DNA from: Sedimenticola sp.
Lineage (GTDB): Bacteria; Pseudomonadota; Gammaproteobacteria; Chromatiales; Chromatiaceae
NCBI GenBank assembly: GCA_011051655.1
Contig: DRKS01000050.1
Coordinates: 1 to 38,195, forward strand
Direction: 5' to 3'
Length of the DNA stretch: 38,195 nt
Part shown: piece by piece, positions 167 through 7,023 of the stretch
How the letters are laid out: every line of letters begins with the position of its first letter
How positions within the stretch are numbered: position 1 is the stretch's first letter
The notes under the pieces: generated by a model
Told to the model about the DNA's origin: nothing
Database searches by the model: none
What the model saw: the letters and a program-made list of their open reading frames with translations, nothing else
Made by a program: the position numbers and the translations under genes

Positions 167-1075
167 TCACTTGCTGATCACCTGGTTACGGCCGCTTTTT
201 TTGGCCTTGTAGAGGGCGGCGTCCGCGCGCTTGAACAAGGTCTCGGGCGTATCGTTCTTCCGCAGCGCCGTCACCCCCAGACTTGCCGTGGCCTTCAGGT
301 CTTTGTGGGCGCCGAAAGTCAGGGTCTCGATTTTCTGCCGGATGCGTTCAGCCAGCAGCCGGGCCCCTTCGACCTCCGTGCAACTGAGCAGGATCAGGAA
401 TTCCTCGCCGCCAAACCGGAACAGCATATCGCTGCAGCGGACGGTTTCCTTCATGCACTGGGCCACGGCCTGCAAGACAAAATCACCGCAGGCATGGCCG
501 AAATTGTCGTTGATGGCCTTGAAATGATCGATATCCAGCAACATGATGCACATTGATGATTTATGCCGGCGGGCCAGTTCGATTTCCCGTTTGATGGCGG
601 TATCCATGCCGGCGCGGTTGTTGATGCCGGTCAACGGATCCATGAGGGCGGTCTGCAGTGCGCTGTGGTAGAGCATGGCGTTGCGCAGGGGATAGACCAG
701 GGCGCACAGTATGTTTTCAAGGATGACCAGTTCCTCGTCCTTGAAGGGGGCGCGGCTGAAAAGCGTCAGTTCACCCAGCGAGTTGTCCTCGATGGTCAGC
801 CGGTAGGTGCACTTGTGCGCTGAGCGCCGCCCGATGGAAACCTCGATGTCCTCGGCCTTGTTCTGAAAGTGGAGGCCGCGGTAGTTGATATCCTGGTTGA
901 TGCCTTCCGCGAACAGGGAGATGAGCTCCCTGACTTCGAGGGTTGTCTGTAACTGCCTGCCCAGTTCCAGGACTCTATGATCCAATCGGGCCGCCAGTGC
1001 CGGTTCAACCTCTTGGTTTGCCCTGAATGGGGCGATGTCCCGATCGCCAGAGACGGTTTGTGTTTGGGTGGCCAT
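167..1075 (-). CDS. GAF-like/GGDEF diguanylate cyclase
   Basis: A 302-residue protein predicted to make cyclic di-GMP from two GTP. Residues about 25-140 look like a GAF-type sensor domain; residues 141-300 are a GGDEF domain with the intact signature GGEEF (222-226), the DxxxF metal/substrate motif in DIDHF (181-185) and a product-inhibition I-site RCSD (213-216) exactly five residues before the signature. There is no signal peptide or membrane segment, so it should be cytoplasmic. The start at 1075 is chosen because AAGGAAGGAGAAC sits directly in front of it; an in-frame ATG 16 codons upstream has no such site. It is separated by 236 nt from the ubiG cluster and probably has its own promoter. 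The ligand of the GAF-like domain cannot be told from sequence. Confidence 0.9.
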   Translation of the reverse strand: MATQTQTVSGDRDIAPFRANQEVEPALAARLDHRVLELGRQLQTTLEVRELISLFAEGINQDINYRGLHFQNKAEDIEVSIGRRSAHKCTYRLTIEDNSLGELTLFSRAPFKDEELVILENILCALVYPLRNAMLYHSALQTALMDPLTGINNRAGMDTAIKREIELARRHKSSMCIMLLDIDHFKAINDNFGHACGDFVLQAVAQCMKETVRCSDMLFRFGGEEFLILLSCTEVEGARLLAERIRQKIETLTFGAHKDLKATASLGVTALRKNDTPETLFKRADAALYKAKKSGRNQVISK

Positions 1076-1190
1076 GTTCTCCTTCCTTTCCTGATTAAGT
1101 ACTCTTGCCGCCAACGCAAACATACAATATGCATGCCAAAAACAAAAAGGGCAGTTGAAACAATAAGATAGTTCTGCTCAGTTGGCCTGC

Positions 1191-3663: not shown

Positions 3664-4359
3664 CTATTTTTGAAGGGTCTTGATATGGGCGATGATTTCT
3701 TCCAGCTTGTCCAGTATCTCTTCTGCTGGAAAAACGGGCATATAGCTCTCATTCCAGCGGTCGATATTGGTGATGTATTTCTTGACCTTCTCATAAGTGA
3801 GGGTGGCGGCAATCTCCGGTGAGCCGATGGCGACCGGTTTGTTCAGGGCCTTCGACGCCATCCAGCCATCTCCGTTACCTGTCTTGCCGTGACAGCCGGA
3901 GCAATACCTCAGATAATAGATGCGCCCCCGCTCTCGCGGATCATTTTTGAAGCGCTCAAGCCGTTGCTGGGGCGTCGGGCCCTTCAGCGGCCCTTTATCC
4001 ACCGCCAGGGTCCGGACATAAGCGACTATCGCCTTGATCTTGTCTTCGCTCAGATTGGATCTCCAGCCCGGCATTTGCAGATAAGGAAATCTTTCCTCGC
4101 CATAGGCAACGCGCTCGATGATCTCTTCATCCGACAGCAGGGACATGTATGCCTTGTTTGAAAGGTCGCCGGTGGGAACCCCGCTGAGATCGCCCGCCGG
4201 GCCGGTTCCAGCGCCATCGTTTCCATGACAGTAAATGCAGAAAGAGTTGTATAACCCTTTGCCTTTTTCTATAAGCGCCTGATCCTTGGAATAGGCTGCA
4301 GTGGCGGCCAATAAAGACATCCCCAGAATGAGCATCATTACTTTGGAGCAAGAGCGCAT
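3664..4359 (-). CDS. Periplasmic diheme cytochrome c
   Basis: A 231-residue secreted cytochrome c with two c-type domains. The signal peptide is residues 1 to about 24 (hydrophobic VMMLILGMSLLAATAA). Heme motif 1 is CIYCH (41-45), with Met96 in LQMPGW the likely sixth ligand; heme motif 2 is CSGCH (153-157), with Met207 in YMPVF its likely ligand. The start at 4359 is fixed by GAGGAG six nucleotides upstream. It should pass electrons in the periplasm; its partners are unknown, as no oxidase or reductase subunit is adjacent. It is transcribed alone and diverges from the Rossmann-GGDEF gene across a 302-nt gap. Subfamily beyond tandem class I cytochrome c is uncertain. Confidence 0.92.
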   Translation of the reverse strand: MRSCSKVMMLILGMSLLAATAAYSKDQALIEKGKGLYNSFCIYCHGNDGAGTGPAGDLSGVPTGDLSNKAYMSLLSDEEIIERVAYGEERFPYLQMPGWRSNLSEDKIKAIVAYVRTLAVDKGPLKGPTPQQRLERFKNDPRERGRIYYLRYCSGCHGKTGNGDGWMASKALNKPVAIGSPEIAATLTYEKVKKYITNIDRWNESYMPVFPAEEILDKLEEIIAHIKTLQK

Positions 4360-4661
4360 AATTAACTCCTCGCATAAACGTTCGGTGGTGCCCAGGCTGG
4401 AACTGAATCGCAAATTACACTTGGAAAACAGGGGCATAGTGCGATTGTTTCCACACTCGGCTGCTTCGAAATATGGTTTTTCTCAAGTAGTTCTTGCGTG
4501 AATAATTAAGCTTGTTATTATCCTTGACAAAGAGAGACTATAGGACAAAGGCACCGAAATCAATCGGCGTGTGGACAGACAGAATCAAAACCTTATCGTG
4601 ACTAATGTTTTGTGCCGAAGGAGCGCAATGAGCCCAGTGACTGAAAGAGTATGGAGAGATT
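4360..4661. other. 302-nt divergent intergenic region
   Basis: AT-rich spacer between the diheme cytochrome (minus) and the Rossmann-GAF-GGDEF gene (plus). It must hold both promoters. A TTGACA hexamer is at 4524-4529 on the plus strand but no convincing -10 box follows at the right distance. A mini-ORF with a strong ribosome-binding site ends over the plus-strand gene start (see 4628-4669). No hairpins of note are seen. Confidence 0.6.
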
Positions 4662-4669
4662 ATGCCTAA
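4628..4669 (+). CDS. Possible 13-codon leader ORF overlapping the GGDEF gene start
   Basis: ATG at 4628 is preceded by AAGGAG (4618-4623, four nucleotides away) and opens a 13-residue frame, MSPVTERVWRDYA, that stops with TAA at 4667-4669, eight bases into the downstream gene (ATG 4662). The downstream gene has its own GGAGAG site inside this mini-ORF. Such an arrangement can couple or limit translation of the second gene. The short length makes chance possible; there is no evidence that the peptide itself has a function. Confidence 0.35.
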   Translation: MSPVTERVWRDYA

Positions 4670-6020
4670 GGTTATGATAATCGGCGCCGGCACCGGAGGG
4701 TCGGCGCTCCTTCCCATCCTGCATGATTATAAGGAGGTGGAGGTCACGGGTATTGTCGATATCAATGATAATGCGCCCGGTTTGAAATTGGCGCAGGAAA
4801 TGGGGATTCCGACAAGCAACGATTACAAGCGGCTGTTGGAGCAGGTTGATGCCGACATAATCATCAATGTAACCGGAAACGATACTGTTTCACGGGATCT
4901 GGACAGTATCAGGCAAAATGGCGAATGGGAGGTTATCGAAGGCAGTAGCGCAAGAGTGCTGTTCAAGCTCGTCGATGAGCGAAGGAAAAGGGAAGAAGAG
5001 GCATTGAGCAGGTTGAAGGAGCATGAGGCCCTTTATGAAATCGGTATCATGCTGACGTCCTCTGAAAGCGGGGATGAGCTGTTGAACACCATTCTGAAAT
5101 GTGCAACCCAGCTGACGGGCACGCCGGCCGGAAGTATTGCTTTGTATGATGAATCCTGTGGCGCCATGGAACTGGTCTCCTCCTGTGGATTCAGCGAGCG
5201 TTTTGCAGACAGGAGCAGATGGGACATTCGGGAAGGCGGGTTTACGGAATACATACTGAATAACAACAAACCCGTTGTAATCCGGAATATCGAAGAGTTT
5301 GCCGAGGCGGAGAGTGAACAGATTCGGGCAGAGGGAATCAAATCCCTCATTGCCATACCCCTGATCGCCGAGCGCAAGACCATCGGCATCCTCTATGTCG
5401 ATGATTTTGTGCCAAGAGACTATTCCACTATAGATGAATCCATTCTGGCATTGTTATCGACCCAGGCGGCAATCGCGATTGATAAAATGCAGTTGTTCGA
5501 GAGCGTTAAAAAGCTCGCCATTACCGATGGGTTGACCGGTCTCTACAACCATAGATATTTTGTCAAGTCGCTGCGGGAAGAGCTGAAGCGCGCGTTGCGC
5601 TATGGCCATAGCCTGTCGGTGCTTATTATAGATGTGGATCATTTCAAACATTATAACGATATCAATGGACACCTTAAGGGAAATGAAGCCTTGAGGCGCG
5701 TCACCCGGGTGATGGAGGAGGCGACGAGGACGGGGGATGTGCTTGCCCGATACGGGGGGGAAGAATTTGCCATAATCCTTCCGGAAACAAATAAGGAAAA
5801 AGCGCTGCAAACCGCCCGGCGGATATGCCTGGCTGTCGGGGAAGAAAAAATCTATGGAGAGGAAAAACAGCCTTTGAAGAAACTCACCATCAGCGTGGGC
5901 GTGGCGACTTTCCCGGAAGACGCCAAGCTGGACGGGGCCCTCATGGACCGGGCTGATCATGCGTTATACAAGGCCAAGCGCGAAGGCAGAAACAGAGTGG
6001 TTGGATATAGCGTAGAGTAG
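4662..6020 (+). CDS. Rossmann (dinucleotide-binding)-GAF-GGDEF diguanylate cyclase
   Basis: A 452-residue cytoplasmic protein with an unusual order of domains. Residues 1-100 are a Rossmann fold: glycine loop IGAGTGG (7-13) after the first strand, and an acidic residue (Asp33 in GIVDIND) at the end of the second strand, as in NAD-preferring proteins. A charged linker (101-125) leads to a GAF domain (about 125-275) and a GGDEF domain (285-450) with DVDHF (324-328), intact GGEEF (365-369) and I-site RTGD (356-359). It should make c-di-GMP under control of a bound dinucleotide or other ligand; NAD(H) sensing is inference. GGAGAG precedes the ATG by five to six nucleotides. It converges with a tetraheme cytochrome gene 11 nt away. 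Confidence 0.88.
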   Translation: MPKVMIIGAGTGGSALLPILHDYKEVEVTGIVDINDNAPGLKLAQEMGIPTSNDYKRLLEQVDADIIINVTGNDTVSRDLDSIRQNGEWEVIEGSSARVLFKLVDERRKREEEALSRLKEHEALYEIGIMLTSSESGDELLNTILKCATQLTGTPAGSIALYDESCGAMELVSSCGFSERFADRSRWDIREGGFTEYILNNNKPVVIRNIEEFAEAESEQIRAEGIKSLIAIPLIAERKTIGILYVDDFVPRDYSTIDESILALLSTQAAIAIDKMQLFESVKKLAITDGLTGLYNHRYFVKSLREELKRALRYGHSLSVLIIDVDHFKHYNDINGHLKGNEALRRVTRVMEEATRTGDVLARYGGEEFAIILPETNKEKALQTARRICLAVGEEKIYGEEKQPLKKLTISVGVATFPEDAKLDGALMDRADHALYKAKREGRNRVVGYSVE

Positions 6021-6031
6021 CTGCGGCTGCT

Positions 6032-6391
6032 TCAGTGATCTCGGTGACAGCTGATGCAGAGCTCCTTTGGTTCGACCCGCAGAAATCCTTTCCCGGTAGT
6101 GTGTGAATCGTGACAAGTAACGCACTCTATCCTGCCGCCTATGAGCGGCAGCCAGCCGGAGCTGCCGGGCGTCATGGATACGCCAACGGCATGATCAAGA
6201 CCCTTGTCCCTGCCCATATGGCATTCGGTGCACAATGTTGTAAGCGGGCGCACCAACTCATTGTTTATGGCGTTCGGTTTGGCGCTCAAATGGCAAGCCG
6301 TGCAGAACTCATGTCCTCTTTCCGCCCATCCGTTACTGGAAATAAGCATAAGCAAAACAACGGCAGCCTGGCGCATGTTCGGAAGGGTCAT
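6032..6391 (-). CDS. Small periplasmic tetraheme cytochrome c
   Basis: A 119-residue secreted protein with four CxxCH heme sites: CTACH (30-34), CTECH (54-58), CVTCH (90-94) and CISCH (112-116). The last pair forms a doubled-CXXCH unit. A signal peptide spans about 7-23 (RQAAVVLLMLISSNGWA). His residues between the motifs suggest bis-His, low-potential hemes as in cytochrome c3/NapC-type proteins; that is inference. Two starts are possible (6391 or an ATG five codons later at 6376); neither has a clear ribosome-binding site. An in-frame extension upstream would run backwards through tRNA genes and is not real. It converges with the Rossmann-GGDEF gene. Confidence 0.85.
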   Translation of the reverse strand: MTLPNMRQAAVVLLMLISSNGWAERGHEFCTACHLSAKPNAINNELVRPLTTLCTECHMGRDKGLDHAVGVSMTPGSSGWLPLIGGRIECVTCHDSHTTGKGFLRVEPKELCISCHRDH

Positions 6392-6503
6392 CGTTTGTTT
6401 GTGCCGTAACTTACTGATGCAATTATATACTATCTGACCAAAGCAGTTGGCTAAAACCAAAAAGCAGCGGCCGGGGCCACCCCGTTGAGGGCCCTGTGGG
6501 GCA

Positions 6504-6532
6504 TTGACGGGACGGCGTGGTGTGCGTATCAT
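6504..6532 (+). promoter_or_regulatory. Sigma-70 promoter of the tRNA cluster
   Basis: TTGACG (6504-6509), a 17-nt spacer and TATCAT (6527-6532): five of six matches in each hexamer. Transcription should begin near 6539, about 30 nt before tRNA-Pro. The bases after the -10 box are C-rich (TCCGCCTC), a discriminator of the kind found at stringently controlled stable-RNA promoters. Confidence 0.75.
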
Positions 6533-6570
6533 TCCGCCTCTCTTCGCCTGGGCGTTTGAACCTTGGCCAG

Positions 6571-6647
6571 CGGGGTATAGCGCAGTCTGGTAGCGCGCCT
6601 GCTTTGGGAGCAGGATGTCGGGAGTTCGAATCTCTCTACCCCGACCA
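6571..6647 (+). tRNA. tRNA-Pro (TGG anticodon)
   Basis: A 77-nt gene with encoded CCA. Acceptor arm CGGGGTA pairs with TACCCCG; the anticodon loop TTTGGGA sits between CCTGC and GCAGG, giving anticodon TGG; T-loop TTCGAAT. First gene of a four-tRNA cluster. Confidence 0.97.
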
Positions 6648-6666
6648 GTTTTGACGAGTCGAATAT

Positions 6667-6743
6667 GCGCCCGTAGCTCATCAGGATAGAGCATCGGTCT
6701 TCTAAACCGAGGGTAGCAGGTTCGAATCCTGCCGGGCGCGCCA
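6667..6743 (+). tRNA. tRNA-Arg (TCT anticodon)
   Basis: A 77-nt gene with encoded CCA. Acceptor arm GCGCCCG pairs with CGGGCGC; the loop CTTCTAA between TCGGT and ACCGA gives anticodon TCT, which reads AGA/AGG; T-loop TTCGAAT. Confidence 0.97.
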
Positions 6744-6830
6744 GACATCCGGATGGTGGTGAGCCGGCAGAATCTGCATGGCAGGCGAAGTGGTTCTGCC
6801 GGGGCCTGTATTCCCGGCAAGCAGCATTAT

Positions 6831-6907
6831 GGTGGGCGTAGCTCAGTTGGTAGAGCCCTGGATTGTGATTCCAGTTGTCGTGGGTTCGAGCCCCATCGTC
6901 CACCCCA
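6831..6907 (+). tRNA. tRNA-His (GTG anticodon)
   Basis: A 77-nt gene including the encoded extra 5' G (position -1) that pairs with C73, the identity mark of tRNA-His. Acceptor GTGGGCG pairs with CGTCCAC (one G-T pair); the anticodon loop TTGTGAT gives GTG; CCA is encoded. Confidence 0.97.
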
Positions 6908-6947
6908 ACAATTACAAGCAGCGTTTTGTGGCTTGTGCCTGTAACCC

Positions 6948-7023
6948 GGGCCGTTAGCTCAGCTGGTAGAGCAGTGGACTCTTAATCCATTGGTCGAAGG
7001 TTCGAATCCTTCACGGCCCACCA
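6948..7023 (+). tRNA. tRNA-Lys (CTT anticodon)
   Basis: A 76-nt gene with encoded CCA. Acceptor GGGCCGT pairs with ACGGCCC; the loop CTCTTAA between GTGGA and TCCAT gives anticodon CTT, which reads AAG only, so another tRNA-Lys reading AAA must exist elsewhere. Last gene of the cluster. Confidence 0.96.

Follow-up and report, generated by a model that had tools for sequence, protein, structure and literature searches.

The usual example of a protein that directly senses NADH/NAD+ is Rex, an NADH-sensing repressor, and few direct sensors of this ratio are known to us. Rex uses a dehydrogenase fold as a sensor behind its N-terminal winged helix. The enzymes of interest here are the acylating acetaldehyde dehydrogenases of the DmpF/MhpF type, whose NAD-binding domain is accompanied by a catalytic part, and the Gfo/Idh/MocA oxidoreductases (e.g., inositol 2-dehydrogenase), which join an NAD-binding Rossmann domain to a C-terminal catalytic domain of their own and keep an EKP-motif lysine. 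Among transcriptional regulators, the BkdR-type sigma-54 activators are relevant here, and the excerpt of the work on BkdR of B. thuringiensis available to us gives only PAS/PAC domains for that protein (PMC4428206). The gene described in this work lies in a stretch of 38,195 nucleotides from a Sedimenticola genome (contig DRKS01000050.1, hereafter the window), and its product has GAF, GGEEF and I-site in common with the GAF-GGDEF diguanylate cyclases but carries an extra Rossmann input at its N-terminus.

The gene occupies positions 4662-6020 of the forward strand and encodes 452 residues from an ATG at 4662, with the sequence GGAGAG shortly before it; the reading frame, Pfam and a full-length AlphaFold2 model give the order Rossmann domain, helix, GAF and GGDEF. 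The N-terminal input domain, delimited by Pfam, AlphaFold2 models and fold matches, covers residues 1-104 (4662-4973) and contains the glycine-rich loop IGAGTGG at residues 7-13 (4680-4700), in which G8, G10 and G13 make up a GxGxxG. A helix assigned by DSSP on the full-length model (residues 94-132, 4941-5057) leads from strand 5 to the GAF domain (residues 138-274, 5073-5483; Pfam GAF_2, E=1e-17), and the GGDEF domain follows at residues 286-445 (5517-5996; Pfam E=1e-46, the model being covered in full, positions 1-161 of 161). Residues 365-369 (GGEEF, 5754-5768) are the active-site motif, and the RTGD of residues 356-359 (5727-5738) is the I-site, an RxxD that is absent from some diguanylate cyclases; R356-T-G-D359 sits five residues ahead of GGEEF, as expected from I-site spacing. 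By its full GGDEF domain, its GGEEF and its I-site, the product is a predicted diguanylate cyclase. The initial annotation, which had been made from the sequence, had already placed the frame and the glycine-rich loop where we find them, and had named a GAF domain and an intact GGEEF domain with I-site behind the loop.

When residues 1-121 are isolated, Pfam recognises GFO_IDH_MocA (29.1 bits, cut-off 24, E=1.8e-6), DapB_N (26.5 bits, cut-off 25.6) and, in a narrow pass, CoA_binding (22.4 bits, cut-off 22.3), with PglD_N, CofD and GARS_N weakly similar to the domain or to its relatives. The best NCBIfam match of the same residues is acetaldehyde dehydrogenase (E=4.3e-8, positions 3-89 of 285), at 32.8 bits far under the curated cut-off of 282.25. 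AlphaFold2 models of the full protein (pLDDT 86.1, pTM 0.55, alignment of 12 rows) and of residues 1-135 (pLDDT 85.1, pTM 0.69, alignment of 3 rows only) both contain a Rossmann domain of five strands, the last of which, at 90-93, runs directly into a helix of about 39 residues; at a pTM of 0.55 the full model does not fix the packing between domains. The elements of the shorter model are strands 3-7, 27-32, 66-69 and 90-93 and helices 11-22, 39-46, 55-61, 74-84 and 94-133, so that Asp33 (4758-4760) comes directly after strand 2, at the strand end to which it had been assigned. A Foldseek comparison with the PDB gave 14 matches at E<=0.001, ten of them chains of acylating acetaldehyde dehydrogenases, three chains of an NAD-dependent glycoside hydrolase and one a phosphoribosylglycinamide formyltransferase, an enzyme that does not use NAD; formyltransferases for glycinamide ribonucleotide and for methionyl-tRNA appear among the Foldseek rows. 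In VIA-align, six acetaldehyde dehydrogenase rows scored Z 13.9, 13.5, 13.0, 12.8, 12.4 and 11.8 (best row: 103 residues, rmsd 2.1, 22% identity), with an aligned model range that stops at residue 104, and the rows below, from Z 11.8 to about 10, are mostly NAD-dependent dehydrogenases, several of them solved with NAD(H) and the majority of Gfo/Idh/MocA type, plus a few other Rossmann proteins. A sequence profile of six domains recovers the same enzymes and, among its weak rows, glutamate racemase and a formyltransferase. Structure prediction thus agrees with the dinucleotide-binding Rossmann fold that had been proposed for the N-terminal region.

Removal of duplicates and partial matches from 120 domain hits left 84 relatives, among which G8 is conserved in 83 (with one gap), G10 in 83, G12 in 75 and G13 in 82, whilst residue 33 is D in 74, E in 8 and Q in 2, and therefore acidic in 82 of 84. 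Further conserved positions of the same set are A44 (82), T71 (76), G72 (73) and A97 (79). The loop and the acidic residue are kept across relatives with different outputs, and an acidic residue at this place favours NAD(H) over NADP(H), so that NAD(H) would be the preferred cofactor of the two. In sequence alignments, D33 falls on D35 of the inositol dehydrogenase 3nto and V91 on the place that we take for that of the EKP lysine; at the latter place 55 domains have I (20), V (17), L (17) or Y (1) and none has lysine. The acetaldehyde dehydrogenases carry a glycine at the place of D33 and an aspartate two residues further. Unlike the Gfo/Idh/MocA oxidoreductases, the protein has no C-terminal alpha/beta catalytic domain after its Rossmann domain, where Pfam finds GAF and GGDEF instead; the catalytic part of the acetaldehyde dehydrogenases is absent too, and an enzymatic reading of the N-terminal region was discarded because this catalytic half is missing. 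Pfam scans of the 84 isolated domains (E<=6e-5) matched GFO_IDH_MocA in 39, DapB_N in 27, NAD_binding_3 in 15 and CoA_binding in 4; no Pfam model of the domain's own is among the listed families, and the matches are generic cross-hits. If NAD(H) is the ligand, the protein would work like Rex, with a dehydrogenase fold as the sensor. It is not a Rex, given that the first strand starts at residue 3, with no winged helix before it, and that Rex models, compared at the sequence level, match at E 0.003 to 0.09 only, far under their cut-offs.

The domain family profile A1, which contains this sequence, scores the protein at 168.2 bits; with this match, the GxGxxG and the acidic residue 33, the domain belongs to a predicted family of shared N-terminal inputs. 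Three copies occur in the source genome, this gene included, and the two paralogues, found with the single sequence as query (E=7e-25 and 7.6e-17), support the family independently of A1. One is a GAF-PAS-GGDEF-EAL protein that has the domain and shows SADEF as its GGDEF motif, and the other has it between a LuxR-type helix-turn-helix, placed before, and GAF-GGDEF, placed after. Relatives of the whole protein were found at 68% (locus L007, in two frames), 63% (L008, from Sedimenticola) and 47% (L009, a Nitrospirae record). Among near relatives, 4 of 38 genomes match at E<=0.001, the own genome counted, and two of these matches are weak, in what may be enzyme genes with frames of about 320 aa. 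Genomes of the window's own class rarely have the domain (13 of 369 at E<=1e-8, including the source genome), and 97 of the 101 positive genomes among the 398 sampled from its phylum at E<=1e-10, again with the source genome counted, come from other classes. At this last threshold, samples drawn around L009, a Geomonas genome and a Bacillus genome gave 64 of 148, 58 of 198 and 60 of 199 genomes, the first and the last counting their domain-carrying seed genomes, which puts the domain in 25 to 43% of the genomes of the four phylum samples. Six of the 11 genomes or records behind the chosen loci match at E<=1e-6. Our search found no domain-bearing viral contigs, and a single plasmid record matched, from Acetoanaerobium, with a chemoreceptor-type protein.

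Several kinds of output module are joined to this domain. Pfam scans of 84 frames at E<=1e-4, 17 of which are truncated by the end of the locus, detected GGDEF (40), HATPase_c (21), HisKA (17), MCPsignal (13), HisKA_3 (7), GerE (5), Response_reg (3) and Sigma54_activat (2). Across 86 neighbourhoods (1.05 Mb), 79 of 87 domain-bearing frames matched an output reference: GGDEF alone (26), chemoreceptor (17), HisKA_3-type kinase (14), sigma-54 (9), kinase with GGDEF (9) and other kinase (4), shares that are not rates, as the 84- and 87-row sets are non-random and consist of hits with loci or picked by choice. The eight remaining frames include a histidine kinase (L198) and one with a receiver domain (L220). 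Pfam gave no match at E<=1e-6 for L238, L242 is a frame of 152 aa adjoining a chemoreceptor-like frame, and four frames of 139-174 aa (L156, L157, L158 and L159) have the domain alone and are apparently standalone; three of these four have GLGxxG as their loop and E or Q at position 33. For 85 domains (two of the 87 rows were left out as too short or identical) a quick tree, with good support for only 20 of its 82 inner branches, requires a minimum of 13 changes between four output types. In the best tree, therefore, outputs have been exchanged repeatedly, although how many times is uncertain. In the short soluble chemoreceptors of L149, L150 and L184-L193 the domain is the only recognisable sensor. 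There are also cases of two adjacent genes that both have the domain (L180/L208), and of two consecutive domain matches in single frames or tandem genes (G1033:C20:35159-35842, G1062, G967, G1003 and G929). A Rossmann input had been regarded as unusual for a GGDEF protein; it is indeed present on this cyclase, but it is not peculiar to it, as many signalling proteins carry the domain, and this generality is a more interesting result than its presence on one cyclase.

Two of the sigma-54 activators come from Bacillaceae (L147 and L148; profile scores of 90.4 and 95.2 bits) and share the N-terminal domain with the window's protein, although their outputs are PAS, sigma-54 activator and Fis helix-turn-helix instead of GGDEF. 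We take them as BkdR because bkd-like genes adjoin: seven genes were scanned beside L147, of which four pass NCBIfam cut-offs, and two beside L148.

Our preferred reading, held with modest confidence, is that a catalytically dead dehydrogenase cofactor domain serves as the ligand-binding input of the cyclase, most likely for NAD(H), and tunes c-di-GMP. The protein would be a diguanylate cyclase of the cytoplasm that has, as its first sensor, a dehydrogenase's cofactor-binding half without the catalytic half, able to bind NAD(H) with no turnover. The helix that leaves strand 5 beside the pocket would move on binding, or according to whether NAD+ or NADH is bound; as it continues into GAF and further towards GGDEF, c-di-GMP output would track the cytoplasmic NADH/NAD+ balance, in whichever direction the putative regulation may go. 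GAF would be a second input and the I-site would provide product inhibition, whilst in other bacteria the same domain would feed into kinases, soluble chemoreceptors and sigma-54 activators. Against NAD(H) we count that the fold is common to non-NAD proteins, such as the formyltransferases and glutamate racemase of the match lists, that GFO_IDH_MocA matches just 39 of the 84 domains, that the acetaldehyde dehydrogenases have glycine in place of D33, that most neighbourhoods lack complex I genes (see below) and that the domain is seldom present in the window's own class. These enzymes, the nearest family in fold and sequence, also use CoA besides NAD, reportedly at one shared site (the work behind 4lrs/4lrt), and together with the CoA_binding matches (4 of 84, plus the narrow pass of the window's own domain) they suggest a sensor of CoA or acyl-CoA, which would report carbon flux and not redox state. 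The BkdR-like activators point the same way, as they control the oxidation of branched-chain keto acids, a process that makes acyl-CoA as well as NADH. We consider a CoA ligand unlikely, since the matches to GFO_IDH_MocA, DapB_N and NAD_binding_3 are each far more numerous and an acidic residue 33 is, by the rule given above, an NAD-type feature.

It is likewise improbable, in our opinion, that the domain is a Rossmann scaffold with subfamily-specific ligands (nucleotide sugars or other metabolites) and no common signal: the phyla and outputs spanned, the lack of a general metabolic gene partner across the 86 neighbourhoods and the weak similarity to PglD_N, CofD and GARS_N are in its favour, yet nearly all 84 domains retain the loop and the acidic residue 33. 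A degenerate, ligand-free domain for dimerisation or partner binding, an idea consistent with the loss of catalysis and with the CARF of RtcR, another Rossmann-type regulatory domain that is reported to act through protein binding (PMC9650030), is very doubtful, because conservation, as judged from the alignment, peaks at the cofactor loop and residue 33 and not at an outer surface patch.

Returning to the preferred NAD(H) reading, the presence of an unnamed domain ahead of many bacterial signalling proteins hints at a common, overlooked sensing of metabolic state. More tentatively, it could be a widespread input for the sensing of NAD(H), as freely shuffled as the PAS and GAF domains are, and could connect the cytoplasmic redox or energy state directly with c-di-GMP, phosphorelays, chemotaxis and sigma-54 transcription, including that driven by BkdR. 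If so, an input would be suggested for many orphan cyclases, kinases and soluble chemoreceptors, together with a second input for BkdR, and the question of what these cytoplasmic receptors detect would become a concrete one. The open-access literature that we searched holds no description of the domain, and the sections of PMC6615313 available make no mention of a Rossmann domain or of one that binds NAD. The region may already be labelled as a Rossmann fold by automatic annotation elsewhere.

A further indication about the ligand comes from the genomic neighbourhoods. Complex I-like genes adjoin 4 of the 86 loci, in comparison with a chance expectation of roughly 1 in 86 that we estimated by hand after seeing the data, and the other 82, including that of the window, have no complex I gene. 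In L009, NuoF is encoded 53 bp upstream of the domain gene and on its strand; in L209 the domain-bearing sigma-54 activator comes after an NAD malate/lactate-type dehydrogenase and before NuoF; in L235, NuoM/N-like genes are followed by a domain-bearing GGDEF protein; and in L197 a kinase and its regulator precede a NuoL-like gene. L205 has weak antiporter-like matches, and the names NuoM, NuoN and NuoL were assigned here to Proton_antipo_M proteins, a family to which other antiporters belong as well. This adjacency, which is suggestive only, points towards NAD(H) as the ligand. Seven loci (L196, L197, L219, L221, L222, L223 and L226) have a HisKA_3 kinase with the domain and a response regulator after or alongside it; a glyA-like gene is near in all seven and an nrdR-like one in some, as named from the starts of the sequences.

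The cytochrome genes on either side of the window's gene, from which a redox theme had been deduced, do exist, with two CXXCH in the frame at 3664-4437 and four in the frame that ends at 6032, both on the reverse strand. The theme itself has weak support: a divergent two-haem gene adjoins the domain gene in L007, whereas no frame with at least two CXXCH was found in L008 and L009 or near either paralogue of the source genome. Moreover, an NAD(H) read-out would report on the redox state of the cytoplasm and not on exported cytochromes. The forward strand has four tRNA genes (Pro, Arg, His and Lys) at 6571-7023, and because the longer four-haem frame runs into them, that gene probably starts near 6391; for the same reason, the reverse-strand frame 6529-6903 is probably spurious, as is the initial part of 6032-6820. 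The window also encodes a second GGDEF protein, of 318 aa (167-1123, reverse strand), which has GGEEF and is built without the Rossmann domain.
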